Notes under the pieces: generated by a model
What the model was told of the DNA's origin: nothing
Seen by the model: only the letters and a program-made list of their open reading frames with translations
Databases searched by the model: none
Shown here: positions 40,580 to 54,736 of the stretch, in pieces
Layout of the letters: each line of letters opens with the position of its first letter
How positions within the stretch are numbered: position 1 is the first letter of the stretch
Program-made: the position numbers and the translations under genes
DNA from: Fusobacterium varium
Lineage (GTDB): Bacteria; Fusobacteriota; Fusobacteriia; Fusobacteriales; Fusobacteriaceae
Direction of reading: 5' to 3'
Length of the DNA: 64,000 nucleotides
Assembly: GCA_002356455.1 (NCBI GenBank)
Contig: AP017968.1
Span: forward strand, 3,286,001 to 3,350,000

Positions 40580-41251
40580 TCAATATAATCCACAAGCTTT
40601 ATTAACTTCTTGAACAAAGATAACTCCTCTTCCAGGTTCATCTATATTGATATCTTTTCTTATTGAAGAAACAATTTTTTCAGTTAAAGAGCTTTGGGAA
40701 ATAATCATAACAATTTCTTTTTCTGGTTCTATAACCATAGCAAAAAGTTTACTCGTTTCATGAATACCAGAACCTCTTCCATTAATAATGGTAGCTCCTC
40801 TTGATCCAGCTTTATTTGCAGCTTCAACAACATGTTCTCCATTACCTTTTTCAACAACAACAACTATAAGATTATACATAGATTTTTCTACACCTCTACT
40901 TTCTTCTGGATTATAATTAATTTCTTTCAGTCCTCTAGCACCTATCGCCTCCTTAATAGAAACAGTAAATGCTACTCCTTTATTAGGTTTATTAAAAGAA
41001 AACTTTTTATCTAATTCTTCCATTGTGGAATAAATTACACTTCTTTCTCCAGCCATTAATATAATTTCTTTTCTGGATTCATTAATTGCAAGAAATTCCA
41101 AGAAAGAATTCCTTATTGTTCCTTTACCTAAACAAACTGTACTTCCTATAATTCCAAATTTTTTTGCATATTTTATTATTTTACTTCCCAGTCCGTAATC
41201 AACTATTATATACATCAATTCAAGTTCTAGCTCCATAAAATTACTCTTCAT
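40580..41251 (-). CDS. Tandem PII-like signalling protein
   Basis: This 223-residue protein is made of two PII-like domains. Domain 1 (about residues 10-112) has YIIVDYGLGSKIIKYAKKFGI and GIIGSTVCLGKGTI. Domain 2 (about 123-220) has LIVVVVEKGNGEHVVEAANKAGSRGATIINGRGSGIHE. Each ends in the ferredoxin-like strand GVAFTVSIKEAIGARGL or GVIFVQEVNKACGLY. PII proteins sense nucleotides and 2-oxoglutarate and gate transporters. It overlaps the 3' end of the DUF1538 gene by 11 bp, so the pair is coupled and the membrane protein is the probable target. The ligand is unknown. Confidence 0.85.
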   Translation of the reverse strand: MKSNFMELELELMYIIVDYGLGSKIIKYAKKFGIIGSTVCLGKGTIRNSFLEFLAINESRKEIILMAGERSVIYSTMEELDKKFSFNKPNKGVAFTVSIKEAIGARGLKEINYNPEESRGVEKSMYNLIVVVVEKGNGEHVVEAANKAGSRGATIINGRGSGIHETSKLFAMVIEPEKEIVMIISQSSLTEKIVSSIRKDINIDEPGRGVIFVQEVNKACGLY

Positions 41252-42734
41252 TTTTTTGTTCTCCTTTCTTTTTCAATTTCATTCCAAAAATAAGTCCTAG
41301 TATTTGAAGTGTTATAATTGGCGTCATAGCTACTGTAGCAATCATTCCAAATCCATCAGTCAATATATTTGCTCCTTCTACTGCTTCAGCTGCTCCTTGA
41401 GTAAACGCTAAAATAAAAGTTGTAGTCATTGGACCTGTAGCTACACCTCCAGCATCAAAGGCAATTCCAACAAACAATTTAGGAATAAAATAACTCATAA
41501 GTATACTTATAATATATCCAGGAAGTAGATAATGCCACAATTGAAGCCCTGGTATAATAATTCTTATCATTGATAATGCAACAGCAATTCCAACCCCAAT
41601 TGCAAGTGCTACCAAAATAGCCCTTCGCCTTACATATCCGCTTGTTACATTTTCAATTTGATGAGTAAGTACATAAACTGCAGGTTCTGCTAAAATAGTT
41701 ACAAATCCAAGAATAAAAGCTATAATAATAACATATGTTTTATTATCATAAGAAGCTAAAGTGTACCCAATAATAGCCCCTATATCCATAAATCCTGTAT
41801 TAACTCCAACTAGAAATAAAAATAGCCCAATAAATGCATAAATAAATCCTTTTATCATTTTCATCATACTTTTTTTATTCATTTTGAAATAAAATTTTTG
41901 GAAAAAGAAAAAAATAATAAGCAAAGGTAAAATAGTAAAAAAACCTTCTTTAAATAAAATTGGAATATTTTCTATAAAAGGCTCAATTATAGATTTAGAC
42001 TCTGTAATATTAAATTCAAGTTTTGCTGAGAAATCTCTTGTCCCAGAAAAAATGCTTAATAACATAACTGACATTATTGCTCCTACTGATGCAATAGCAA
42101 CTAGTCCAAAACTATCTCTTTCAGATGCTTTACTATCTTTTTTCATTGAAGATATACCTACTGCCAAAGCTAAAATAAAAGGTACAGCTAAAATTCCAGT
42201 AGTTGCTCCAGAAGCATCAAAAGCAATTGTCAAGAATTCTACTGGTGTAAATAAAGCAAGAATAAATACAACTCCATAGAGAACTGTCAGCATTTTATGT
42301 AAAGATATATTAAATAAAATTCTGACAAATCCTGCCGCCAACATAATTGCCAACCCAATAGATACAATTCCAAGAATACTTATACTGGATATTTGTCCAG
42401 AAGTAACAATACCAACTTGATCAGCCAAAATAATTAAACCTGGTTCAGCTATTGAAATAAAAAAACCTACAATTAATCCTCCAATAATAACAATCCATAT
42501 TTTATTTGATTTTGCAAAAGTGGCACCAACCTGGCTCCCTAATGGAGTTATTGCAATGTCTACTCCTAGCAAAAAAATAGACAAGCCAACGATTATTAAA
42601 AAAGCCCCTATTATAAACCTAATTATTAATGGTATTTCAAGAGGAGTTAATGTAAAATTAAGTACCATTACAATAGCAGTAATTGGAAATATAGAAAATA
42701 AAGCTTCTTTAAATTTTTGTGTATAAATATTCAT
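41241..42734 (-). CDS. DUF1538 family membrane protein (putative transporter)
   Basis: This 497-residue membrane protein has about 12-14 segments and an internal duplication. Each half has the pattern GVDIAITPLGSQVGA or GVNTGFMDIGAIIGY, then ISIAEPGLIILADQV or TILAEPAVYVLTHQIENVTSG, and later AFDASGATTGILAVPFILALAVG or AFDAGGVATGPMTTTFILAFTQG. These are features of DUF1538, a family often adjacent to PII genes; its substrate is not established. I chose ATG 42734 because the upstream 32 codons are basic and lack similarity to the second half. It is coupled to the tandem PII gene. Confidence 0.85.
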   Translation of the reverse strand: MNIYTQKFKEALFSIFPITAIVMVLNFTLTPLEIPLIIRFIIGAFLIIVGLSIFLLGVDIAITPLGSQVGATFAKSNKIWIVIIGGLIVGFFISIAEPGLIILADQVGIVTSGQISSISILGIVSIGLAIMLAAGFVRILFNISLHKMLTVLYGVVFILALFTPVEFLTIAFDASGATTGILAVPFILALAVGISSMKKDSKASERDSFGLVAIASVGAIMSVMLLSIFSGTRDFSAKLEFNITESKSIIEPFIENIPILFKEGFFTILPLLIIFFFFQKFYFKMNKKSMMKMIKGFIYAFIGLFLFLVGVNTGFMDIGAIIGYTLASYDNKTYVIIIAFILGFVTILAEPAVYVLTHQIENVTSGYVRRRAILVALAIGVGIAVALSMIRIIIPGLQLWHYLLPGYIISILMSYFIPKLFVGIAFDAGGVATGPMTTTFILAFTQGAAEAVEGANILTDGFGMIATVAMTPIITLQILGLIFGMKLKKKGEQKNEE

Positions 42735-42925
42735 AGTTACCAGTTTCCTTTCCTCATAATAATCTTTATTAATTAATAATTTAGTTAAATATCTTTTATC
42801 TTTTTTAAATATTTTAATTATCTTCACCATATTTAATAGCTTTATTTTAACATATTTTTATAATTCACCCTAAGAAAATAAAAGAATTAATTTAATTATA
42901 TAAAATATTATATTTATAACATAAT

Positions 42926-42992: not shown

Positions 42993-44363
42993 TTATACAA
43001 ACATAGGTATTACATAAAGCCCAATTGTTGTAATTACTAACCAAAATACCCAGATAAAAGCCATAAATCCCCATACATCTTTAAGCTTCATTCCCACAAC
43101 TGACAGTGCTGGAATAACATACAAAGGCTGCAGTAAATTTGTTGCCTCATCTCCATATACAAAAGCATTTATTACATATAACATATTGGCATCTACCTGT
43201 TTAGCTGCATCTACCAGCAATGGTCCTTGAACTATCCATTGACCACCTTGAGAAGGAATAAATAAATTTGTTACAGATGCAGATATATATGACCAAACTG
43301 GCATAGTAGATGCATTTGCAACATTTATGATTGCTGCAACTACAACAGCTCCAAATCCAGAATCCATCATCATTCCTGCTATTCCTCCATAAAATGGAAA
43401 CTGAATTATTATCTCAGTAGTTAAAAACATATTTTCTTTATATGCTTCAACAAATTTTCTTGGAGTATTATACAAAAAACAATTTAATGTAATAAACAAA
43501 AATATAATAAAGTTTACACTTAAAGCTCCTAAAAACCCTTTTGTTATAAATGTATTTCCTAAAACTAAGATTCCAGATATTCCTATGAGATACATTATTA
43601 TTCTGCTGCCATTTAATTTATCAGCAACTGTTTCATTTTCTTCTATTTCTTCATTAATTTCTTCATCATCTAAAGCAGTTTTAAATTCTACAATCTCTTC
43701 TTTTGGTGGTATGGTAAAAATACTTAGCAATACAGTAAAAACTGCCATGACTATAAATAAAATTACATTTACATTATTATATACAGTATCTGCTTGTGTC
43801 AATATTCCTATTTCTTTTTCAAGAAAATGTCCTTTTGTTGCAACAAGAGCATAAACAGATGCACTTGGTCCCAAACATTGTCCCAAAATCATAGTCGAAT
43901 ATCCTGCTGCAATCATCATTGGAAAATGTAATCCTTTTATCTGTTTTGAAAGCTGCATTGCCAGAATAGGAGTGACTACTGTACAGAAAGCCCAGTTTAC
44001 AAAACTAGAAACATATCCAAAGCCCATCAAAAGTATCATAGCTCCCATTGGTGTTTTTGGTATACCTGCAATCCATCTCAGCACTTTCTTTATTTGTCTT
44101 GATTTTGCACACACAGCACATGTGACTACCATAAATGCCATCTGAAATGCAAAAGTCATTTGAGTCCATAATCCATTATACCAGTGTATCACCATTTTTA
44201 CAGGACTGGTTTTTGTAAAAATTATTCCTAACACAAAAACTATAAAGGTAAGTATCAAACAAAATACAAATGAATCAGGAATCAATTTATCTGCTGCAAA
44301 CTGAAATTTTTTGCTTAATCTCCATAAAAATGTTCCTTTATTTATTGATTTAGAATTTTCCAT
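42993..44363 (-). CDS. atoE: AtoE-family short-chain fatty acid transporter
   Basis: This 456-residue membrane protein has about 12 segments and begins FLWRLSKKFQFAADKLIPDSFVFCLILT, the AtoE N-terminal signature. Conserved internal regions include GFGYVSSFVNWAFCTVVTPILA, LGQCLGPSASVYALVATKGH and PSQGGQWIVQGP near the C-terminus. AtoE proteins move acetoacetate or short-chain acids such as butyrate across the inner membrane. It is the third gene of a sigma-54 operon with a BKACE enzyme and a dehydrogenase, so it may export the acid product or import the hydroxy-acid substrate. Confidence 0.9.
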   Translation of the reverse strand: MENSKSINKGTFLWRLSKKFQFAADKLIPDSFVFCLILTFIVFVLGIIFTKTSPVKMVIHWYNGLWTQMTFAFQMAFMVVTCAVCAKSRQIKKVLRWIAGIPKTPMGAMILLMGFGYVSSFVNWAFCTVVTPILAMQLSKQIKGLHFPMMIAAGYSTMILGQCLGPSASVYALVATKGHFLEKEIGILTQADTVYNNVNVILFIVMAVFTVLLSIFTIPPKEEIVEFKTALDDEEINEEIEENETVADKLNGSRIIMYLIGISGILVLGNTFITKGFLGALSVNFIIFLFITLNCFLYNTPRKFVEAYKENMFLTTEIIIQFPFYGGIAGMMMDSGFGAVVVAAIINVANASTMPVWSYISASVTNLFIPSQGGQWIVQGPLLVDAAKQVDANMLYVINAFVYGDEATNLLQPLYVIPALSVVGMKLKDVWGFMAFIWVFWLVITTIGLYVIPMFV

Positions 44364-44380
44364 ATCTTATCCCCCTAATT

Positions 44381-45328
44381 TTATTCTATATAGTTTTTTG
44401 ATGTCTTTAACTGTATAATTAATTTTTTATTGAATTTATTTTTAATCTCATTTATTTTTTCTTTTGGATATTTAAAAAATCCTTCTCCTGATTTCATTCC
44501 TAATTTACTTTCAAGTACTTTTCTTCTCAATAAAGGATTTGCTTCTTTTCTATTATCCATAACACTCAATAAATTATCTCCTACAGTACACCAAATATCT
44601 AACCCTCCTATATCAGCAATTTCTAATTGACCTGATGTTGCATATCGAAATGCTGGCCCAAATTTTAATGCTTTATCTATATCTTCAGGTTCTGCAACTT
44701 CCATTTCTATCAATGAAAATACCTCTCTTGCTATTGCCTGTTGTATACGATTAGCAACTAACCCAGGTATATCCTTTAAAATCTTTACAGTCTGCTTTCC
44801 AGAATCAGAATAGAGTTTCTCCACCTCTCCATATATTTCTTCAGGCATATTTCCAAAAAAAGATAATTCTGCAATAGGCATTAAATGAGCTGGGTTATAC
44901 CAATGACATACCATTATTCTTTTTTTTCTGTCTTTGCTTATGTCTCTGCCCATTTCATCTAATTTTAAACTTGATGTATTGCTTGCAAAAATTGTTTCTT
45001 TTTTGCAATATTCATCCAGTTCTTTAAATAATTTTTGTTTCAGTTCAACCTTTTCTGGAATTGCCTCTATTACATAATCTGCATCTTTTACAGCATCTTT
45101 TAAGTCTGAAAACATTTTAATATTCTTTAATGTTTTTTGAATATCTTCCTTTTTTATAAAATCATTCTCTAATAAAAATAATAACTCCTCTTCTATAACT
45201 TTCTTTGCATTTTCTCTTATTTCTGTATTAATTTCATATAAACTGACATTATACCCATGCAACGCAAAAACTTCGGCTATTCCATGTCCCATTGTTCCTG
45301 CACCTATAACTGAAATATTTTCTATCAT
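44381..45328 (-). CDS. 3-hydroxyacyl-CoA dehydrogenase-family oxidoreductase
   Basis: This 315-residue NAD-dependent enzyme has the Rossmann motif VIGAGTMGHGIAEVFA (residues 7-22), the central region ASNTSSLKLDEMG, the catalytic His-containing MVCHWYNPAHLMP, and DIPGLVANRIQQAIAREVFSL. The tryptophan in HWYNP differs from the HFFNP usual in 3-hydroxybutyryl-CoA dehydrogenase and resembles relatives acting on free 3-hydroxy acids, such as carnitine or L-gulonate dehydrogenase. Its start overlaps the BKACE stop by a few bases. It would oxidise a 3-hydroxy acid to the 3-keto acid that BKACE cleaves. Exact substrate unknown. Confidence 0.85.
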   Translation of the reverse strand: MIENISVIGAGTMGHGIAEVFALHGYNVSLYEINTEIRENAKKVIEEELLFLLENDFIKKEDIQKTLKNIKMFSDLKDAVKDADYVIEAIPEKVELKQKLFKELDEYCKKETIFASNTSSLKLDEMGRDISKDRKKRIMVCHWYNPAHLMPIAELSFFGNMPEEIYGEVEKLYSDSGKQTVKILKDIPGLVANRIQQAIAREVFSLIEMEVAEPEDIDKALKFGPAFRYATSGQLEIADIGGLDIWCTVGDNLLSVMDNRKEANPLLRRKVLESKLGMKSGEGFFKYPKEKINEIKNKFNKKLIIQLKTSKNYIE

Positions 45329-46161
45329 AATTCTTCAACTCCATTTTTCAATCCCAAAATCTCTCTAGCTTCAGCAGGAGTTGCTATTTCATTCATAGAA
45401 CTTTCAATCAATTTAGCTGCCCTCTCTACAAGCTGAGCATTTGAAACTGCTAATTCTCCTGGTCCATAATATACATTGTCTTCCATCCCTACGCGTACAT
45501 GTCCCCCCATAGCAATAGCTGTCATCAAAATAGGTATGTGTCCTTTTCCTATTCCTAATGCTGACCATGTACTTCCTTCTGGAATTAAACTTTTCAAGTA
45601 CACTAGATTTTCTACAGTTGCAGCTGTTCCTCCAGCAGCCCCTAATACAAATTGATAATGTACTGGTTCTTTAAGAACTCCTTTTTTTATATAATATAAT
45701 GAATTATATATCATTCCTGCATCAAAGATTTCAATTTCTGGTTTTACATTATTTTCCTGCATTGTATATCCTAATTCCTCTAAAAATTTTGGATGATTAA
45801 TAAATAAGCTATTATGCATCCAGTTCATAGATCCACAATCATAAGAAGCAAGATCTGGTTTTATTAATTTTAAATGTGCCTGTCTAGTTTCATCAGTAGC
45901 ATTTAGATCGCCAGAAGTCGTTAAATTAATAACTATATCACATTTTTCTTTTATAAGTTTAACTGTCTTTTCAAATTTTTGGATATTCATAGTTCCTTTT
46001 CCCATATCATCTCTCATATGAAGATGAGCTACTGAAGCTCCTGCTTTGTAACATTCATATACATCATTTGCAATTTCTTCTGGTGTTAATGGTATATTAG
46101 GGTTATCTTTTTTAGATGGCCAAGCTCCTGTTGGAGCTACTGTTATTATTATTTTACTCAT
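45325..46161 (-). CDS. Beta-keto acid cleavage enzyme (BKACE, Kce/DUF849 family)
   Basis: This 278-residue TIM-barrel enzyme condenses a beta-keto acid with acetyl-CoA and cleaves it to acetoacetate and a new acyl-CoA. It has the zinc-ligand motif VAHLHMRDD (about residues 45-53), the N-terminal ITVAPTGAW, LTTSGD (about 80), and GMEDNVYYGPG near the C-terminus. The lysine-fermentation enzyme Kce is the known Fusobacterium member, but the rest of the lysine cluster is absent here. It is the first gene of a sigma-54 operon with a dehydrogenase and AtoE. Substrate not assignable from sequence. Confidence 0.9.
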   Translation of the reverse strand: MSKIIITVAPTGAWPSKKDNPNIPLTPEEIANDVYECYKAGASVAHLHMRDDMGKGTMNIQKFEKTVKLIKEKCDIVINLTTSGDLNATDETRQAHLKLIKPDLASYDCGSMNWMHNSLFINHPKFLEELGYTMQENNVKPEIEIFDAGMIYNSLYYIKKGVLKEPVHYQFVLGAAGGTAATVENLVYLKSLIPEGSTWSALGIGKGHIPILMTAIAMGGHVRVGMEDNVYYGPGELAVSNAQLVERAAKLIESSMNEIATPAEAREILGLKNGVEEL

Positions 46162-46209: not shown

Positions 46210-46225
46210 AGCAAAATTTATGCCA
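46210..46225 (-). promoter_or_regulatory. Sigma-54 (-24/-12) promoter of the BKACE operon
   Basis: The minus strand reads TGGCAT-AAATT-TTGCT (46225-46210), matching the sigma-54 consensus TGGCAC-N5-TTGCW with one deviation. It lies about 50 bp before the BKACE start and downstream of an enhancer-binding-protein gene. Confidence 0.85.
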
Positions 46226-46289: not shown

Positions 46290-46305
46290 GATGATTTTTT
46301 TCATC
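46290..46305. promoter_or_regulatory. Enhancer (UAS) site 1 for the sigma-54 activator
   Basis: The palindrome GATGATTTTTTTCATC is 65-80 bp upstream of the -24 element. An identical 16-mer occurs at 46367-46382. Confidence 0.75.
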
Positions 46306-46366: not shown

Positions 46367-46382
46367 GATGATTTTTTTCATC
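46367..46382. promoter_or_regulatory. Enhancer (UAS) site 2 for the sigma-54 activator
   Basis: This is the second exact copy of GATGATTTTTTTCATC, 77 bp from the first and 142-157 bp upstream of the -24 element. Such pairs are typical of Fis-type activator sites. Confidence 0.75.
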
Positions 46383-46401: not shown

Positions 46402-47916
46402 TCACTCATATTCTTTTAATTTAAGAATATCTATTTCTAAAGCCTTACATTTCTTTACTACTGTTGATTGCTCTATTCCTAAATACTTAGCAGCTTTTCT
46501 TGTTGAACCAAAATTTTTTAAAGCCTTAGTTATTATCCTTTTTTCCAAATATGATACTGCTTTTTTTATATCATAATCACTTACTTCTATAAAAAAATCA
46601 TTACTGTCTATCATTGGAGCTATTTCTCTTGATGTAATTGTTCCAGTTGTATTTATTACCACTATTCTTTCAAGAAAATTTTCTAGTTCTCTAATATTTC
46701 CAGGCCACTGATATTTCACAAGAATTTCTACAGCTTCTCTGTCTATACTGGTATTTTTATTATATTTTTTATTAAAAATACTTAAAAATTCAAATATTAA
46801 TTCTGGTATGTCTTCTATTCTCTTTCTCAAGGGCTCTATATCTATAGGAACTACATTCAGCCTATAAAATAAATCTTCTCTAAATTTTCCGTTTTTTATT
46901 TGTTCCTTAAGATTTTGATTAGTTGAGGCTATAATTCTTATATCTAATTTTATAGACTTTGTTCCTCCAAGTCTCATAATTTCTTTTTGTTGTAATACTC
47001 TTAAAAGTTTAGTTTGCAATTTTATTGGCATATCTCCTATTTCATCTAATAAAATAGTTCCTTCATTAGCCAATTCAAACATACCTATTTTTCCATTTTT
47101 TTTAGAATCTGTAAAAGCTCCTCCTTCATATCCGAATAATTCTGCTTCTAATAACTCATTTGGTATAGCAGCACAATTTACTTTGATAAAGGGTTTATCC
47201 TTTCTAAGACTTTTATAAAAAATTTCATCAGCTATCAATTCTTTTCCTGTTCCTGATTCTCCAGTTATTAATACTGTTACATCTGTCGGAGCTATTGTAT
47301 TTATCAGAGTAAAAATAGAATTCATTTTTTCACTTTTATATACAAGCTTTTTATTGGATACTTGCTTACTTCTTAAAAATTTTATCTCTTCATCTACTTT
47401 TAAAGAAGTTTTCTTTAATTTTTCAATCTTATTTTCCAATTCTTTTAATTCACTGATATCACGATTATTTATAACAACAAGTTCTACTTTTCCATTTGTA
47501 TCAAATATTGGACTTCCAGTTACTAAAACATCCTTATTTAATTTTATTATCTTTCCAATATTATTTATTCTCTTTTTTTCTTTTATTACATCTAAAGTTA
47601 CAGCTCCTTTATAAATATCACCTTTAGCAAGAATATCTTTTACATTTTTTCCAATTATCTCTTCCTTTGTTATTCCAGTTATTCTTGTATAGGCTTCATT
47701 TATAAAAAGCGTTTTTCCTTCACCATCAGATATATAGATACCATCAAAAAGATTATCTGCTATCTCTTTAAAATCAAAATAATTGCTGAGAAATTCATGA
47801 TATTCTTTTTGGATAAGTTCATATTTTTCTTTTATCTTCTTATCTTTTTCTATAGCTTCTAAAAATATTCTGTCAATATCTTTCCATAATTTTTTCAAAA
47901 TATCACTATCTCTCAT
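46402..47916 (-). CDS. PAS-containing sigma-54-dependent transcriptional activator
   Basis: This 504-residue enhancer-binding protein has a PAS sensor (about residues 55-155: NLFDGIYISDGEGKTLFINEAYTRITG), a coiled-coil linker, and an AAA+ domain. The AAA+ domain carries Walker A GESGTGKE (about 220), Walker B LLDEIGDMP, the R-finger region FREDLFYRLNVVPI and WPGNIRELENFLER. A Fis-type helix-turn-helix (STRKAAKYLGIEQSTVVKK) lies at the C-terminus. The sigma-54 contact loop reads GAFTDS where GAFTGA is canonical. Upstream genes on the strand encode a D-2-hydroxyacid dehydrogenase, and the downstream operon carries a -24/-12 promoter and duplicated palindromes, its presumed target. Confidence 0.93.
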   Translation of the reverse strand: MRDSDILKKLWKDIDRIFLEAIEKDKKIKEKYELIQKEYHEFLSNYFDFKEIADNLFDGIYISDGEGKTLFINEAYTRITGITKEEIIGKNVKDILAKGDIYKGAVTLDVIKEKKRINNIGKIIKLNKDVLVTGSPIFDTNGKVELVVINNRDISELKELENKIEKLKKTSLKVDEEIKFLRSKQVSNKKLVYKSEKMNSIFTLINTIAPTDVTVLITGESGTGKELIADEIFYKSLRKDKPFIKVNCAAIPNELLEAELFGYEGGAFTDSKKNGKIGMFELANEGTILLDEIGDMPIKLQTKLLRVLQQKEIMRLGGTKSIKLDIRIIASTNQNLKEQIKNGKFREDLFYRLNVVPIDIEPLRKRIEDIPELIFEFLSIFNKKYNKNTSIDREAVEILVKYQWPGNIRELENFLERIVVINTTGTITSREIAPMIDSNDFFIEVSDYDIKKAVSYLEKRIITKALKNFGSTRKAAKYLGIEQSTVVKKCKALEIDILKLKEYE

Positions 47917-47940: not shown

Positions 47941-48924
47941 TTATGCTATTTCACATCTATATGTTCCATTTTTCTTAAATTCTACCAATCCTTCTACTCC
48001 ACATCTTACCATACTTTCTGTAGCAGAATCGGTATAAAAAGCCATATGTTGTGTTAATACTACATTTGGAAATTGACGTAGATATGCCATATCTCTATTT
48101 TGGATAATATCTGATTTTCTATCCATATGATATATTCCGTTTTCATTTTCTATTACATCCAATCCTAAAGCTCCTATTTTCTGATTTTCTATTCCTTTTA
48201 TTAAAGCTTGAATATCCATCAATTCCCCTCTAGCTGCATTTATCAATATTACTCCATCTTTCATTTTATTTATAGATCCTTCGTTTATCATGTGATAAGA
48301 TTCATCTGTTAAAGGCAGATGAAGTGATATTATATCTGATTCCCTATACAAAGTTTCTATATCTACATATTGTGCATATTTTTTTATTTCATCACTTTCA
48401 TATTCACTATTTGCTAATATTTTACACTGAAATCCTGCTAAACTTTTTATTACTGTTCCACCTATTTTTCCAGTTCCTATTATTCCAACAGTAAGGTTTC
48501 TTAACTCCCTACCTATCAAACCATTAAGTGAATAATCATTTACATTTTGTCTCCACATAGCTGGCTTGTAATTTCTTATTGCTAAAAGCATAAGCATGAT
48601 AGTAAAATCTGCTACTCCATTTGGAGCATAATCTGCATTACATATTTTTAATCCTATCTTTTTAGCATAATCTATATCTATGTGGTTATATCCAATTATT
48701 CTGGTAGATATATACTTTATTCCACTCTCTTTTATCCTGTCCAACAAGTTTTTTTCTAATTTACTGTGTCCTAAAATACTTATTCCTTCACATCCTCCAG
48801 CTATATCAAAAGTTTCTTTTGTAAGTATTTTTTCTGTTTTTATAATTTCTACATCATATTCTTTTTCCAATCTTTTCAATATTTCTTCTTCATCTTTTCT
48901 TAATTCAAAAAATGCTATTTTCAT
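47941..48924 (-). CDS. D-lactate dehydrogenase-like D-2-hydroxyacid dehydrogenase
   Basis: This 327-residue NAD-dependent enzyme has the Rossmann motif VGIIGTGKIGGTVIKSLAGF (about residues 144-163), the catalytic Arg in INAARGELMD, the Glu in DVIENENG, and the His in LTQHMAFYT. The ISTRIIGYNHIDIDYAKKIGLKICNADY region fits the LdhA/VanH branch, reducing pyruvate or related 2-keto acids. It lies 24 bp upstream of the sigma-54 activator gene on the same strand, so the two may be cotranscribed. Alternatives are 2-hydroxyisocaproate-type dehydrogenases. Confidence 0.88.
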   Translation of the reverse strand: MKIAFFELRKDEEEILKRLEKEYDVEIIKTEKILTKETFDIAGGCEGISILGHSKLEKNLLDRIKESGIKYISTRIIGYNHIDIDYAKKIGLKICNADYAPNGVADFTIMLMLLAIRNYKPAMWRQNVNDYSLNGLIGRELRNLTVGIIGTGKIGGTVIKSLAGFQCKILANSEYESDEIKKYAQYVDIETLYRESDIISLHLPLTDESYHMINEGSINKMKDGVILINAARGELMDIQALIKGIENQKIGALGLDVIENENGIYHMDRKSDIIQNRDMAYLRQFPNVVLTQHMAFYTDSATESMVRCGVEGLVEFKKNGTYRCEIA

Positions 48925-49033
48925 ATTTCCACCCTATTTTTTTAATTTATTTCAATAATTTATGATATCATATTTATTTATTTTTTTTATATTTTTTATT
49001 TTGAAATTTTCTAAAAAAGACATAATTCTATGT

Positions 49034-49039
49034 TATAAT
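49034..49039 (+). promoter_or_regulatory. Extended -10 of the lipoprotein gene
   Basis: TGTTATAAT (49031-49039) is an extended -10 (TGnTATAAT) with no good -35. It is about 40 bp before the TTG start of the lipoprotein gene. Confidence 0.6.
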
Positions 49040-49078
49040 CTCCATAGAAAATATACATAATTTAAGGAGGATATTCTC

Positions 49079-49609
49079 TTGAAGTTAAATAAAGTTCCCA
49101 GGTTCTTATATATCATAATCTGTATTATTTTTTTTACTGGGTGCTCTTCTATCACAGAAAAAATGCTTATCTTTCATGTAGAAAGATCTCTAAATCCTGT
49201 TATAATACCATATAGGTCTACTGAAAAAGAGATGAAAGAGTTTTTTGGAAAACCTGATTTTGTTATTGCTAAAAAAAATAGATTTTATGGTATAACTTAT
49301 TACAATGGAAGTTACTACTTAAATAACACTGAAGAACACAAAGAAATATTAAAAAAACTTCTGCCTGAAAAAATATTAAAAAATGAAGAATCTCTTAAAG
49401 AAACTATTCTTACAATATACTTTGATCCTATTGACAGAGTTGTATCAAAATATGATATAAGAAAATATATGGCTCCTCCAGAATATGATCCCAATGCTCT
49501 TACACCAGAGGAAAAAGCTGAAATAGAAGCAAAGAAAAAAAAATTAAGAGATGAATTTCGGGACTTATCCCCTTTAGAAGTTTTAAACAAAATAATACTG
49601 GAAATATAA
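49079..49609 (+). CDS. Lipoprotein of unknown function
   Basis: This 176-residue protein has a lipoprotein signal (hydrophobic YIIICIIFFTGC, Cys22). The mature part carries the motif EMKEFFGKPDFVIAKKNRFYGITYYNGSYYL, like a small SmpA/OmlA-type outer-membrane assembly fold, but I cannot make that a firm call. The C-terminus is Lys/Glu-rich (LTPEEKAEIEAKKKKLRDEF). It starts with TTG at 49079 behind AAGGAGG, and no ATG is available. Monocistronic, with a terminator at its end. Confidence 0.75.
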   Translation: MKLNKVPRFLYIIICIIFFTGCSSITEKMLIFHVERSLNPVIIPYRSTEKEMKEFFGKPDFVIAKKNRFYGITYYNGSYYLNNTEEHKEILKKLLPEKILKNEESLKETILTIYFDPIDRVVSKYDIRKYMAPPEYDPNALTPEEKAEIEAKKKKLRDEFRDLSPLEVLNKIILEI

Positions 49610-49637
49610 AAAGGCTGTATTACAGCCCTTTTATATT
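49607..49637. terminator. Bidirectional terminator between the lipoprotein gene and the sugar-acid operon
   Basis: A stem AAAAGGCTGTA / TACAGCCCTTTT (49609-49632) has flanking A/T-runs and separates convergent genes. Confidence 0.8.
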
Positions 49638-49638
49638 T

Positions 49639-50799
49639 TTATGCATAATTACAAATACGCATAACTGAAGTTTCTATAAATCCAAGTATTTCTGCTTTTA
49701 CTAATTTTCCACTAGCCACTTCTATTACTTCTTTTAAAAGTTTTTCTCCTAGTTCTTCTAAGCTCTCAGGTCCATAAATAACATGACTTGCATCAACATC
49801 TATATTATCTTCCATATTTTCATAAGTTATTCTATTTCCTGTTATCTTTATAACAGGAGCTATTGGATTCCCTGTTGGAGTTCCTCTTCCAGAAGTAAAA
49901 AGAATTATTTGAGCCCCACCTGCTATCATTCCAGCTATTGATGAAGGATCATTTCCAGGAGTATCCATTATTATAAGCCCTTTTTCTTCAATTGATTTAG
50001 CATAATCTATAACATCTTGTATTATAGAAGTTCCTCCTTTATGAATACATCCCAAGGATTTCTCTTCTAATGTTGTTATTCCCCCAGCTTTATTTCCAGG
50101 TGAAGGATTTCCTGCCCTTACTTTCTCTCCAACAGATTCCAAATTTTTTTCATATCTATCTATTATTTCATAAATTCTTTCTTTTACTTTTTCATTTTTA
50201 GCTCTTTTAGCCAATATATGCTCAGCTCCAATAAATTCAGTCGTTTCACTCAATATAGAGGTTCCACCCATTTTAACTATTCTATCACTCAACTCTCCTA
50301 CTAATGGATTTGCTGCAAGCCCTGAAGTTGGATCAGAACCTCCACATTCTGTTCCTATTATCAATTCGCTTATAGGAAACATTTCTTTCTGTAATAAAGT
50401 AGCTTCCTGGACAAGTTCCATTGCATATCTGATGCCTTTTTCTACAGTTCTTATTGTTCCCCCTTCTTCTTGAATTATTAATGTTTTTATAGGTTTATTA
50501 GTTCTTTTAGCTATTTCATCAACTACTAAATCCATTTGACAATTTTCACATCCTAAAGAAATCACAACTGTAGCATAGATATTAGGATTTGCTGCATATC
50601 CTGCCATCATATCCATTGTATATTGTTGGTCTGAAGGAACTTGAGAACAACCATTTTGATTATTAAATGTAACTGTTCCTTTAACTTGGCTAGATATCAT
50701 TCTTGCTGCATCTGAAGCACATACACTTGTAGGTAAAATCAAGACATGATTACGTACTCCTACTTTTCCATCTGATCTTTTATATCCATAAAATTTCAT
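49639..50799 (-). CDS. UxaA-family sugar-acid dehydratase, large (C-terminal) subunit
   Basis: This 386-residue protein matches the catalytic part of altronate/galactarate dehydratases. It begins FYGYKRSDGKVGVRNHVLILPTSVCASDA and has the motif NQNGCSQVPSDQQ (metal-binding Cys), SLGCENCQMDLV, GTECGGSDPTSG, and FTSGRGTPTGNPIAPVIKITGN. UxaA is a single chain in E. coli; here the SAF domain is a separate gene just upstream, as also seen in SuyAB sulfolactate lyases. The surrounding KDPG aldolase and DgoK-type kinase favour a hexonate dehydratase giving 2-keto-3-deoxy-hexonate. Last gene of the operon. Confidence 0.88.
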   Translation of the reverse strand: MKFYGYKRSDGKVGVRNHVLILPTSVCASDAARMISSQVKGTVTFNNQNGCSQVPSDQQYTMDMMAGYAANPNIYATVVISLGCENCQMDLVVDEIAKRTNKPIKTLIIQEEGGTIRTVEKGIRYAMELVQEATLLQKEMFPISELIIGTECGGSDPTSGLAANPLVGELSDRIVKMGGTSILSETTEFIGAEHILAKRAKNEKVKERIYEIIDRYEKNLESVGEKVRAGNPSPGNKAGGITTLEEKSLGCIHKGGTSIIQDVIDYAKSIEEKGLIIMDTPGNDPSSIAGMIAGGAQIILFTSGRGTPTGNPIAPVIKITGNRITYENMEDNIDVDASHVIYGPESLEELGEKLLKEVIEVASGKLVKAEILGFIETSVMRICNYA

Positions 50800-50814
50800 A
50801 TTTCCCCCTAGAAT

Positions 50815-51090
50815 TTAATTTGTTTCACTTGTTGTGTTGTGTACATGCACGTGTGTTCCTTTTTTTATATTGGTCACAGCCTTGCCAATATGCTCTCCAT
50901 ATTTAATAACTACTTCATTTTGTTTTATATCTGAAGTTGCTATTTTATGGTATATTATTATATCTTCTAATACCTCTATTTCTTTTATATTATTTTTTTT
51001 ATCTTTATATTTTATAATCTCTCCCCTTGTTATTGGTTCTATTGCTACAATTACATTATCCATATCATTTATAGAAAGTGCTTTTATCAT
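50815..51090 (-). CDS. UxaA-family dehydratase, small SAF-domain subunit
   Basis: This 91-residue protein is an SAF domain (NVIVAIEPITRGEIIKYKDKK, then IIYHKIATSDIKQNEVVIKYGEHIGKAVTNIKKGTHVHVHN). It matches the N-terminal domain of altronate dehydratase and the SuyA subunit. The GTHVHVHN end is the typical metal-binding terminus. It begins 17 bp after dctM and is followed 15 bp later by the large subunit. Together they form one split enzyme. Confidence 0.88.
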   Translation of the reverse strand: MIKALSINDMDNVIVAIEPITRGEIIKYKDKKNNIKEIEVLEDIIIYHKIATSDIKQNEVVIKYGEHIGKAVTNIKKGTHVHVHNTTSETN

Positions 51091-51107
51091 AAGTTCTCTC
51101 CTTTATT

Positions 51108-52397
51108 TTAATATAACATATTTACCAGAGCTGTTGAAAATTGAGGTACAAAAGTTAGCAAACCTAATACTATAAGTAAAAGAATGTAAAAAGGAACTGC
51201 CTCTTTTATAAAGTTTTTAATCTTACATTTTGTAACTCCACAAGTAACAAACATCAATGTTCCCATAGGAGGGGATAATGTTCCTATTGAAACATTAAAA
51301 ATAAATATCATTGCAAAATGAATCGGATCAATATTAAGTTTTAATGCAATTGGAGCTAATAAAGGAACTAGAATAATAGTTATTGCATTTCCTTCTATAA
51401 ACATTCCTACTATTATTAAGAAAACATTTACAATAATAAGGAACATATACTTATTGCTGATAACTTCTACTATATAATCTGTTAGTTGCTGAGGAACTCT
51501 CTCCTTAGTTAAAACCCATGAAAGAGCTGAAGCTGCACCTACAATAAGCATTATAGCTGAGGTAGTTATAACTGTTTCTTTTATTCCATCTAAAAATTTT
51601 TTCATTGTAAGTTCTCTATATACAATTCCAAGTATCAACGAGTAAATAATTGCCACTGACCCTGCTTCTGTTGGAGTAAATATTCCAATACGTATTCCCC
51701 CTATAATGATAATAGGAAGACATAAAGGCAACACAGCACCTTTTAGAGCTTTTAAAAATTCATTCATTTTTATTCGCTCTTCATGCAATGGCTTATATCC
51801 TCTTTTTTTAGACATAAAATGTACAAGAATCATCAGAGCTATACAAAGCATTGCCCCTACACTTAACCCTGCTACAAATAATTTACCTATAGAGACATTA
51901 GCTATTGAGCCATACAATATCATTCCAATGCCAGGGGGAATTAATGGAGTTATCATTGCTGATGTTGCTGTTACAACTGAAGAAAATTCTTTAGAAAAAC
52001 CTTTTTTTTCCATTTCAGGAACAAGCATCTTTGCTTCCATTGCTGCATCTGCCAAATTTGATCCTGATAACCCTCCCATTAAAGTAGATAAAAGTATATT
52101 TACTTGAGCCAAACCTCCAGTCATACGTCCAGTTAGAACTCCACAAAATTCCATAATTCTTTGAGTGACTCCTGAATGATTCATAAAAACTCCAGCACAT
52201 ACAAAAAATGGAATTGCAAGAAGAGGTATACTTTCTACTCCCGCTACCAAACGCTGAGCTATAATTAGTTGAGGAACTCTTGGTGTAAGAATAAAATAAG
52301 TAACTGATCCTGCTAAAATAGAAATAAATACTGGAACTTTCAAAAATAAAAATACAAGCAGTACTATTCCTACTAATCCTACAATATTGATACTCAT
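51108..52397 (-). CDS. TRAP transporter large permease (DctM)
   Basis: This 429-residue protein has about 12 membrane segments and begins GIVLLVFLFLKVPVFISILAGSVTYFIL. It contains the DctM signatures AGSNLADAAMEAKMLVPEM-like GLSGSNLADAAMEAK and ATSAMITPLIPPGIGMILYGSIANVSIGKLF. It exchanges Na+ for the captured substrate. The start overlaps or abuts dctQ (1 bp apart). It serves the sugar-acid uptake step of the operon. Confidence 0.93.
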   Translation of the reverse strand: MSINIVGLVGIVLLVFLFLKVPVFISILAGSVTYFILTPRVPQLIIAQRLVAGVESIPLLAIPFFVCAGVFMNHSGVTQRIMEFCGVLTGRMTGGLAQVNILLSTLMGGLSGSNLADAAMEAKMLVPEMEKKGFSKEFSSVVTATSAMITPLIPPGIGMILYGSIANVSIGKLFVAGLSVGAMLCIALMILVHFMSKKRGYKPLHEERIKMNEFLKALKGAVLPLCLPIIIIGGIRIGIFTPTEAGSVAIIYSLILGIVYRELTMKKFLDGIKETVITTSAIMLIVGAASALSWVLTKERVPQQLTDYIVEVISNKYMFLIIVNVFLIIVGMFIEGNAITIILVPLLAPIALKLNIDPIHFAMIFIFNVSIGTLSPPMGTLMFVTCGVTKCKIKNFIKEAVPFYILLLIVLGLLTFVPQFSTALVNMLY

Positions 52398-52398
52398 T

Positions 52399-52896
52399 TT
52401 ACTCCTCCTCTCCTAAACCAATTAAATCTTTTCCAAATATAACTTTTATTTCTGCTATTATATAATTTACTATCATAAGAAAACATCCAACAGGTATAGC
52501 CAAATAAATATATTGAATAGGAATATGCAATATATTTGTACTTCTATTAGTTTTTATAAATTGAAGAACTAAGTTTTTTCCATTTATCAACATAAAAAAT
52601 AAAACACTTATAGTTACTACAGCTATTATCACTTCAATTATTCTTTGAATATTTTTAGGAAACATATCAACTATCATATCAATAGCTATATGATTTGAAT
52701 AACGAAATGCTGCACTTGCACCAAAAAATATTACCCATATTGCCAAACCAATTTGAACCTCTTCCTGCCATATTATAGGACTGTTCATGATATAACGCAT
52801 TAGAGATCCTAAAAATGTAAGAATTATAAGTATTATCAGGGCAAGCCCTGAAATTAGTAAATCTAAACTAAGAATTTTTTGAATTATATTTTTCAT
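52399..52896 (-). CDS. TRAP transporter small permease (DctQ)
   Basis: This 165-residue protein has four membrane segments. It carries the family pattern MRYIMNSPIIWQEEVQIGLAIWVIFFGASAAFRYSNHIAIDMIV (about residues 30-75), with conserved Trp-Glu-Glu and His-Ile. It forms the transport unit with the large subunit downstream and is preceded by dctP. Gene order P-Q-M is normal. Confidence 0.92.
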   Translation of the reverse strand: MKNIIQKILSLDLLISGLALIILIILTFLGSLMRYIMNSPIIWQEEVQIGLAIWVIFFGASAAFRYSNHIAIDMIVDMFPKNIQRIIEVIIAVVTISVLFFMLINGKNLVLQFIKTNRSTNILHIPIQYIYLAIPVGCFLMIVNYIIAEIKVIFGKDLIGLGEEE

Positions 52897-52959
52897 CTTT
52901 ATCTTCCCACTTTCTTTTTATGAGTATGGCACATATAAAATATGTGCCATACTCAAATT

Positions 52960-53970
52960 TTACTCTATAATAGAATTTATTTTTTCTGCTAAACCATTTG
53001 ACCATTTATTTAATAATGTCTTATCTTGATAGAAAGGCTCTGCTGCTTTTCTAAATTCATCAAAATTAACTTCTGTTACTGTTACCCCTTCTTTTTTTAA
53101 TTTCTCTAAACATTCTTCATCAGCTTTTGCAGCTAATTTATTTTGATATTCTCCAGCTTCTGTACAAGTCAATATTAATAAATCCTGTTCTTCTTTAGTT
53201 AAAGTATTAAAGAATTCATTTCCTATACATATAGATGATAAATCTCTTATATGTCCATCAAGCATAAGATATTTTGCAACCTCTTGATATTTTCCACTAT
53301 AAATTACAGATAACGGATTTTCTAAACCATCAATTGTTCCTTGTTGAAGAGATGTGTAAACTTCTGAAAGTGCCATTGGAGTAGGTGTTGCTCCTAATAC
53401 TTCAAATCCTTTTACATGAACTGTACTACTTTGAGTACGTATTTTCATTCCTTTTAAATCAGCTACATTTTTAACAGGTTTTGTAGTTATAGTATGTCTT
53501 ACTCCATATCTCCAGTTTTTTCCAACTATTTTTAGTCCATTTTTTTCTAATTCATTTTCTTTTTCTCTCCACCAGTCACTAGCTGTTAATTTATCAAGTT
53601 GTTCCCAATTTTCAAATAAGTATGGTGCCTGCATAATACCTAAATCAGGAACTCCTCTATCTGCATAGAATGGTCCATTTCCAATAGCTACTATTGCATC
53701 TCCAGCAAGCATTTGATCAATCAAATCACTTTTAGATCCTAACTGCCCTGAAGGAAATACCTCTAGTTTCATTTTCCCATTACTACGCTCAGAAAGTATT
53801 TTTGCCCAGTATAGTGCTGCCTCTTGAACTGGATCTCCTGGATTATTGTCATGCCCAAATTGTATTACTATTGGCTTCTCTGCTTTTGTTCCATCTTCTT
53901 TTTTATCCCCTGAACATCCTATTAATAATACTGATAAAACTACTATTACCATTGAAAATATTTTTTTCAT
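52960..53970 (-). CDS. TRAP transporter substrate-binding lipoprotein (DctP)
   Basis: This 336-residue protein has a lipoprotein signal (LSVLLIGC, Cys about 20). The DctP/TeaA-like mature domain has QFGHDNNPGDPVQEAALYWAKIL, the carboxylate-binding Arg region MKIRTQSSTVHVKGFEVLGATPTPM and GTIDGLENPLSVIYSGKYQEVAKYL. It captures an organic acid, and the context suggests a sugar acid. I chose ATG 53970 (AGGAGG seven bases upstream). Confidence 0.92.
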   Translation of the reverse strand: MKKIFSMVIVVLSVLLIGCSGDKKEDGTKAEKPIVIQFGHDNNPGDPVQEAALYWAKILSERSNGKMKLEVFPSGQLGSKSDLIDQMLAGDAIVAIGNGPFYADRGVPDLGIMQAPYLFENWEQLDKLTASDWWREKENELEKNGLKIVGKNWRYGVRHTITTKPVKNVADLKGMKIRTQSSTVHVKGFEVLGATPTPMALSEVYTSLQQGTIDGLENPLSVIYSGKYQEVAKYLMLDGHIRDLSSICIGNEFFNTLTKEEQDLLILTCTEAGEYQNKLAAKADEECLEKLKKEGVTVTEVNFDEFRKAAEPFYQDKTLLNKWSNGLAEKINSIIE

Positions 53971-53989
53971 CTTCACTCCTCCTAATTTC

Positions 53990-54736
53990 TTAATTTAAAA
54001 TTTCTGATATTTTTTTTGCTGTATCTTTTATTTTCTTCCCTCTTCTTTTTGTTTCCTCTCCATCTATCGTTGTGTATAGCCCTGCTAAACTTATTGCTCC
54101 AAATATTTTCCCTTCTTGGTATATTGGAGCTGCTACACAAGAAACCTCTATATCTCCTTCTCTATAATCTATAGAATATCCTCTCTTTTTTGTTTCCAAA
54201 ATATCTTTTTTTAGCTTATCTGAATCAATTATTGTATAGTCTGTCTTAGGTTCTAATTTTGTTCTAGAAATATACTCTTCTAAGTCTTTTTCAGAATAAG
54301 TTGATAAAATTGCTTTTCCAAGTCCTGTATAATATAATGATTTTCTGCTTCCTAATACTGCTGTAGTCCTCACAGTTTTTGAGCTTTCTATCTTTGAAAG
54401 ATATAATACATCATCTTCATCCTTCAATCCAAAAAATAATGTATCATTAAATTCATCAACTAATTCTCTTAAAAATGGTGTTACTATATCTAATATTTCC
54501 CTTTTTTCTCTCATTTTTAATGAAAGTTCAAATATTTTATTTCCAAGTTGATACAATTTTAAACTTTCATCACAACAATAAAGATAATTTTTAAAAACTA
54601 AAGCTTTTACTATATCATCCACAGAACTTCTTGGAATTTCCAATTCTTTTGAAAGCTGTGTTATTGTCATTCCATTTTTTGAGTTAGAAATTTTTTCAAG
54701 TATTTCCATTGTTTTTAAAGTCGACTTATTCAACAT
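53990..54736 (-). CDS. IclR-family transcriptional regulator
   Basis: This 248-residue protein has an N-terminal winged helix (NGMTITQLSKELEIPRSSVDDIVKAL, about residues 20-45) and a C-terminal effector domain with SLKMREKREILDIVTPFLRELVD, GSRKSLYYTGLGKAILSTY and VSCVAAPIYQEGKIFGAISLAG. IclR proteins such as KdgR respond to 2-keto-3-deoxy sugar acids. It is inside the operon it probably controls; two inverted 19-bp operators bracket the operon promoter at 56374-56515. Confidence 0.92.
   Translation of the reverse strand: MLNKSTLKTMEILEKISNSKNGMTITQLSKELEIPRSSVDDIVKALVFKNYLYCCDESLKLYQLGNKIFELSLKMREKREILDIVTPFLRELVDEFNDTLFFGLKDEDDVLYLSKIESSKTVRTTAVLGSRKSLYYTGLGKAILSTYSEKDLEEYISRTKLEPKTDYTIIDSDKLKKDILETKKRGYSIDYREGDIEVSCVAAPIYQEGKIFGAISLAGLYTTIDGEETKRRGKKIKDTAKKISEILN

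Follow-up and report, generated by a model that had tools for sequence, protein, structure and literature searches.

Phloroglucinol is the ring of plant polyphenols. In Clostridium scatologenes, its anaerobic degradation depends on a gene cluster for phloroglucinol reductase (PGR), dihydrophloroglucinol cyclohydrolase (DPGC), the dehydrogenase TfD, and triacetate acetoacetate-lyase (TAL) (PMC10470551). CsTfD is the characterized (S)-3-hydroxy-5-oxohexanoate dehydrogenase, assayed on 3-hydroxy-5-oxohexanoate/triacetate, and the BKACE-family protein CsTAL converted triacetate and acetyl-CoA into acetoacetate and acetoacetyl-CoA in the assay; it possesses Trp16 at the position of Glu14 in Kce, the residue by which the BKACE of lysine fermentation binds the 5-amino group of its substrate (PMC10470551). 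The window analyzed here is a stretch of 64,000 nucleotides (contig AP017968.1, positions 3,286,001 to 3,350,000) from the 4.12-Mb genome of Fusobacterium varium Fv113-g1, a gut Fusobacterium from a patient with ulcerative colitis. Its minus strand contains three genes, for a BKACE, a dehydrogenase, and an AtoE permease, all open at the coordinates given in Table 1 and forming one operon. It is likely that this is a sigma-54-controlled operon for the lower phloroglucinol pathway, with the C6 acid being imported by AtoE from outside of the cell.

The operon resembles the C. scatologenes cluster in its TAL-type BKACE with Trp, its free-acid dehydrogenase of the 3HCDH family, and the related type of PAS/sigma-54 regulator, but AtoE has been added, and PGR and DPGC are missing from the cluster and from the genome. 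The first-pass annotation of positions 42993 to 46161 had described a cluster of a BKACE, a dehydrogenase with an HWYNP motif, and AtoE, which agrees with the open reading frames, the Pfam domains, and the motif found. Its span covered the three genes correctly and left out the regulator, the sigma-54 promoter, and two activator sites. It had also left the substrate unassigned; this position can be given up because the known pair 3-hydroxy-5-oxohexanoate/3,5-dioxohexanoate (triacetate) is the best predicted assignment.

BKACE and dehydrogenase

A set of 226 genomes from a single clostridial order provided clusters with DPGC, whose neighborhoods were read. All 15 phloroglucinol-linked BKACEs examined have Trp in the Glu14 column of Kce, the window BKACE likewise (W14), and the latter also matches 113 of the 113 columns that are invariant among these 15 proteins. 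A complete phloroglucinol cluster in a Fusobacteriaceae genome (L096 in G279) encodes a BKACE with 80% identity to it, and for that of a C. scatologenes-like cluster (L066), the identity is 78%. The source of the latter (L066/L099, G126) is C. scatologenes or a very near relative, because the gene order is that implied by the published accession numbers and because Trp16 of the BKACE as well as Ser122, His143, and Asn194 of TfD are at the published positions. In the tree, the window BKACE falls within the W-type BKACE group.

The window BKACE shares with Kce the family, the fold, the metal-site histidines and glutamate, and presumably the mechanism. It differs by Trp instead of Glu14, by its partner genes, and by a score of 322.3 bits for the Kce model NF052387 with its cut-off of 382, although this is still the best NCBIfam model. 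As the first-pass annotation had proposed, its substrate should thus be another than that of Kce. For NF053538, the model of 3,5-dioxohexanoate:acetyl-CoA acetone transferase, the score was 231 bits with a cut-off of 430; the predicted substrate is the same, but the window BKACE does not contain the insert of about 23 residues and belongs to a different BKACE subgroup. Co-location with PGR and DPGC, by which a TAL may be recognized, does not occur at this locus. The comparison nevertheless argues strongly for a predicted triacetate (3,5-dioxohexanoate) acetoacetate-lyase.

Alignment of the window dehydrogenase with TfD and Hbd, a 3-hydroxyacyl-CoA dehydrogenase, revealed that the catalytic Ser, His, and Asn are kept, including H142 and N193, and that Lys56 and Asn221, the CoA contacts of Hbd, are both lost. 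An identity as Hbd was rejected for this reason. TfD likewise does not possess these CoA contacts (PMC10470551). A three-residue insert with an arginine (R228) is common to the window dehydrogenase and TfD, and the CoA enzyme is without this arginine. The window dehydrogenase probably acts on a free 3-hydroxy acid. By an established rule for this fold, an acidic residue terminating the second Rossmann strand indicates a preference for NAD+. E32 is such a residue, which suggests the use of NAD+.

A BKACE was present in 39 of the 39 loci with a window-type dehydrogenase. In five phloroglucinol clusters with DPGC (L020, L021, L022, L139, and L141), orthologues of the window dehydrogenase hold the place of TfD. 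Three of these clusters, from Lacrimispora, a Clostridium, and a clostridial metagenome-assembled genome (L020 to L022), contain reductase and cyclohydrolase, and the other two, from Sporomusales genomes (L139 and L141), combine DPGC (70-71%) with this dehydrogenase and with an activator site and a regulator type that are the same as in the window operon. In these two genomes (L139:1394-3200 and L141:2016-3760), DPGC is paired with an SDR that is just 41% identical to phloroglucinol reductase, so that the ring substrate may differ there. Comparison thus strongly favors a predicted NAD-dependent (S)-3-hydroxy-5-oxohexanoate dehydrogenase of the HWYNP clade. This would correct a likely misannotation of a whole 3HCDH-family clade, as judged from the 39 loci examined, and provides a testable substrate for an operon that would otherwise be labeled Kce, acyl-CoA dehydrogenase, and fatty acid transporter.

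Proposed uptake and fate of the C6 acid

When the genome was searched for DPGC, one partial match of 27.8 bits was obtained, and the best SDR in a search for phloroglucinol reductase was 30% identical. Of the 34 dehydrogenase loci whose clusters are without DPGC, 29 encode an AtoE or GntP permease, compared to none of the 18 with DPGC (Fisher P = 8e-10, a value that overstates the contrast because the loci are related). Of the five loci without a permease, three (L023, L146, and L152) are in genomes with DPGC elsewhere, L148 is truncated where its contig ends, and no explanation applies to L143. Uptake of the acid in place of its formation would be expected to leave such a distribution. Because the permease occurs only where DPGC is missing from the cluster, and because this genome is without ring-opening enzymes, the operon may be assigned with moderate confidence to a scavenging form of the lower phloroglucinol pathway in which a permease supplies the acid.

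Following this route, AtoE would bring in the C6 acid, since the genome contains neither PGR nor DPGC; the permease is probably an importer of a C6 hydroxy/keto acid, its substrate and direction being predictions. The acid would have to reach the cell from its surroundings, where phloroglucinol degraders or some other source might supply it. The dehydrogenase would oxidize (S)-3-hydroxy-5-oxohexanoate with NAD+ to 3,5-dioxohexanoate (triacetate), which the BKACE would cleave with acetyl-CoA into acetoacetate and acetoacetyl-CoA, and the CoA-transferase and butyrate enzymes of the cell would complete the breakdown. Oxidation of a 3-hydroxy acid, acetyl-CoA-dependent cleavage of the 3-keto acid by the BKACE, and movement of the acid by AtoE had been the outline in the first-pass annotation, which is supported as probable. 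The enzyme activities, the direction of transport, the origin of the acid, and the inducer are predictions made from sequence comparison.

A CoA-transferase pair is encoded in the genome at C1:606270-607528. Genes for AtoDA, often with a thiolase, are located beside the dehydrogenase/BKACE pair in the relatives L013, L023, L136, L138, and L146, and L138 additionally contains crotonase, Hbd, EtfAB, and acyl-CoA dehydrogenase beside the pair. These neighbors are consistent with a fermentation of acetoacetyl-CoA to butyrate.

Control region and conservation of the operon

The coordinates of the operon and its control elements are listed in Table 1.

Table 1. Features of the operon and its control region in the window
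Feature	Position	Strand	Basis or remark
PAS-domain activator dependent on sigma-54, predicted to regulate the operon in response to an acid	46402-47916	minus	Pfam PAS + Sigma54_activat + HTH
Second predicted activator site, identical palindrome GATGAAAAAAATCATC	46367-46382	minus	77 bases further upstream
Predicted activator site, palindrome GATGAAAAAAATCATC (GATGA-N6-TCATC)	46290-46305	minus	Upstream of the promoter
Sigma-54 -24/-12 promoter TGGCATAAATTTTGC	46211-46225	minus	49 bases before the BKACE start
BKACE-family enzyme, predicted TAL	45325-46161	minus	PF05853, 358 bits
3-Hydroxyacyl-CoA-dehydrogenase-family protein	44381-45328	minus	PF02737 + PF00725; motif CHWYNPAH at H142
AtoE/short-chain fatty acid permease	42993-44363	minus	PF02667, 326.5 bits (gathering score, 27)

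The promoter is the sole perfect sigma-54 match in the window, and a sigma-54 promoter is found at the same position in the genus relatives G260 and G261 and in most orthologous operons. The spacing of the two palindromes is also the same in G260 and G261. Moreover, Fusobacteriaceae, Clostridium, Sporomusa, Bacillus, and Sporosarcina have operons without DPGC in which GATGA-N6-TCATC is located ahead of the promoter. A pattern of activator site, 40 to 70 bases, and sigma-54 promoter was searched for in 20 genomes with the reversed pattern as control. Nine matches were obtained, eight of them at this operon or its equivalents, and the ninth, in a Sporomusa genome, precedes a neighboring acyl-CoA dehydrogenase-EtfBA-crotonase operon; the reversed pattern gave zero matches in these genomes. 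In the F. varium genome, the search for a further regulon member yielded the window operon as the single occurrence.

The PAS domain of the regulator is 42-57% identical to those of the regulators of palindrome-carrying DPGC-less operons and 34-43% identical to those of most regulators of Clostridium phloroglucinol clusters, compared to just 17-30% for the regulators of L007, L008, L014, and L019. This gradation suggests that the window regulator and the phloroglucinol-type regulators may respond to a related ligand.

The reading frames of BKACE and dehydrogenase have 4 bases in common, and 17 bases separate the dehydrogenase gene from that of AtoE. The operon is kept in G260 and G261 with identities of 95-96% for the BKACE, 91-93% for the dehydrogenase, and 97% for AtoE. 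In G275 and G276, which belong to another Fusobacteriaceae genus, it is also kept, with a LysR gene in place of that for the sigma-54 regulator. Further Fusobacteriaceae, as well as relatives from Clostridium and Sporomusa, have the order BKACE-dehydrogenase-AtoE, and this recurrence indicates that the cluster is not due to chance. A terminator was not found downstream on the operon strand.

Fusobacteriota, Negativicutes, Clostridia, and Bacilli may perhaps share a dedicated regulon by which free 3-hydroxy-5-oxohexanoate or triacetate is scavenged as a nutrient, an idea put forward tentatively and with some doubt. If true, the ring-opening product of phloroglucinol degradation, or another natural source of the acid, would be traded in guts and sediments. 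Should the window operon indeed serve scavenging, the breakdown of flavonoids and tannins in the gut would be divided among organisms, with a defined intermediate as the handover point, and Fusobacterium would gain butyrate precursors.

Alternative substrates and other loci

Evaluation of the assignment to the lower phloroglucinol pathway needs to consider several points that weigh against it. The fork joining the window BKACE to the nearest phloroglucinol-linked BKACEs is weak (81/63), so that the assignment rests on residues and identity instead of branching order. Window dehydrogenase and TfD form separate supported clades with 35-39% identity, which means that the former is TfD-like in its predicted action and not a TfD orthologue. 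The GATGA-N6-TCATC palindrome was not found in the Clostridium phloroglucinol clusters, and the accessible papers document no source of 3-hydroxy-5-oxohexanoate outside of phloroglucinol degraders. Finally, some sister operons carry Phe, Gln, or Val in the W14 column, and the substrate may vary across their BKACEs. Separately, the literature search turned up no publication that connects Fusobacterium with BKACEs of phloroglucinol breakdown.

The variation at position 14 (W/F/Q/V) would also agree with the same chemistry on another short and plain 3-hydroxy acid (3-hydroxyhexanoate or 3-hydroxyvalerate, for instance), whose 3-keto acid would be cleaved into acetoacetate and butyryl- or propionyl-CoA, with AtoE, a member of the short-chain fatty acid permease family, importing the fatty acid. 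The acyl-CoA dehydrogenase-EtfBA-crotonase controlled by the same activator site in the Sporomusa relatives could process butyryl-CoA, but L138 adds Hbd, and such a module would equally convert acetoacetyl-CoA to butyryl-CoA. With W14 and every invariant column of the phloroglucinol-linked BKACEs present in the window BKACE, and with L139 and L141 containing the cyclohydrolase besides this regulator site and dehydrogenase, a short-chain substrate of this kind is unlikely.

The pathway could also operate in reverse, forming triacetate from acetoacetate and acetoacetyl-CoA and reducing it as an electron sink, with AtoE exporting 3-hydroxy-5-oxohexanoate. The TAL and TfD reactions are indeed reversible in vitro (PMC10470551), and an exporter would likewise account for the missing ring-opening genes. 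This direction would use up CoA esters able to yield ATP, however, and the dedicated PAS/sigma-54 activator, the recurring AtoDA and thiolase neighbors, and the ring-opening cyclohydrolase upstream in the sister regulon of L139 and L141 fit catabolism, which makes reverse operation quite improbable.

The first-pass annotation had named a carnitine-like or amino acid substrate as an example, with 3-dehydrocarnitine or a 3-keto-amino acid being formed and subsequently cleaved by the BKACE. A carnitine dehydrogenase and a BKACE of Pseudomonas act in such a sequence, according to work cited in PMC12482172. Both pairs have the same protein folds and consist of a BKACE and a dehydrogenase of the 3HCDH family whose substrate carries no CoA. 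The window proteins belong to other subfamilies, however, and the dehydrogenase scored far under the cut-offs of the carnitine dehydrogenase models NF005471 (96.5 of 414 bits) and NF005716 (130.2 of 592 bits). The amine-binding Glu14 is replaced by Trp, the closest BKACEs are in phloroglucinol clusters, AtoE is not of an amine or betaine carrier family, and no carnitine genes adjoin the operon, so that this example is not supported and is very improbable. A second Kce for lysine fermentation with an unusual dehydrogenase, for which the best NCBIfam model and 46% identity to the Kce of the genome would speak, is hardly credible, given the loss of Glu14, 322 bits compared to the 461 bits of the true Kce (cut-off, 382), the separate sigma-54 control, and a complete lysine operon elsewhere.

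This lysine operon, kal-kce-kdd-kamA-kamDE, is L006, one of the five loci of the genome matched by PF05853, and its genes are absent from the window locus, as the first-pass annotation had stated. L008 (C1:3451894-3456752) is a paralogous operon with a sigma-54/PAS regulator, a 60% identical dehydrogenase, a BKACE, and AtoE, which is kept in G260, G261, and G262 without the palindromic activator site. Its BKACE, which replaces the W14 type, scored 418.6 bits with the 3,5-dioxohexanoate model NF053538, just under the cut-off of 430, and in a relative from the Sporomusaceae, the BKACE adjoining this same dehydrogenase exceeded it with 432.6 bits. This dehydrogenase family therefore has partners from two subgroups of BKACEs, and both of these subgroups are linked to 3,5-dioxohexanoate.

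L007 (C1:1958863-1964058) is another BKACE route with no substrate assigned. It encodes a sigma-54/PAS regulator, a ketopantoate-reductase-like protein, a GntP-like permease, a Trp14 BKACE that is 57% identical to the window BKACE, and a MaoC-like protein. In Bacillus and Sporosarcina, the window-type dehydrogenase is found together with a related reductase and a GntP permease. At L009 (C1:490620-498612), a BKACE together with a TRAP transporter, a DUF1537-like kinase, and a class II aldolase resembles a sugar-acid route.

Among the related operons, that of Bacillus sp. EB01 holds a gene for an HMG-CoA-reductase-family protein (L018:12620-13891), the BKACE reading frame of Clostridium bovifaecis is apparently broken (L014:9172-9738), and the dehydrogenase of L135 was not recovered as an intact open reading frame (L135:8831-10217). 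In the window, positions 47941 to 54736 encode a D-2-hydroxyacid dehydrogenase, a dehydratase split into SAF (91 aa) and GD_AH_C (386 aa) subunits, a TRAP transporter, and an IclR regulator, which suggests catabolism of a 2-hydroxy acid or sulfo acid to which no substrate was assigned. At positions 40580 to 42830, directly downstream of AtoE, are genes for a double DUF1538 protein, both halves of which are similar to the UmpA/UmpB antiporter subunits, and then for a PII-like protein, and this pair is located at the same place in G260 and G261.

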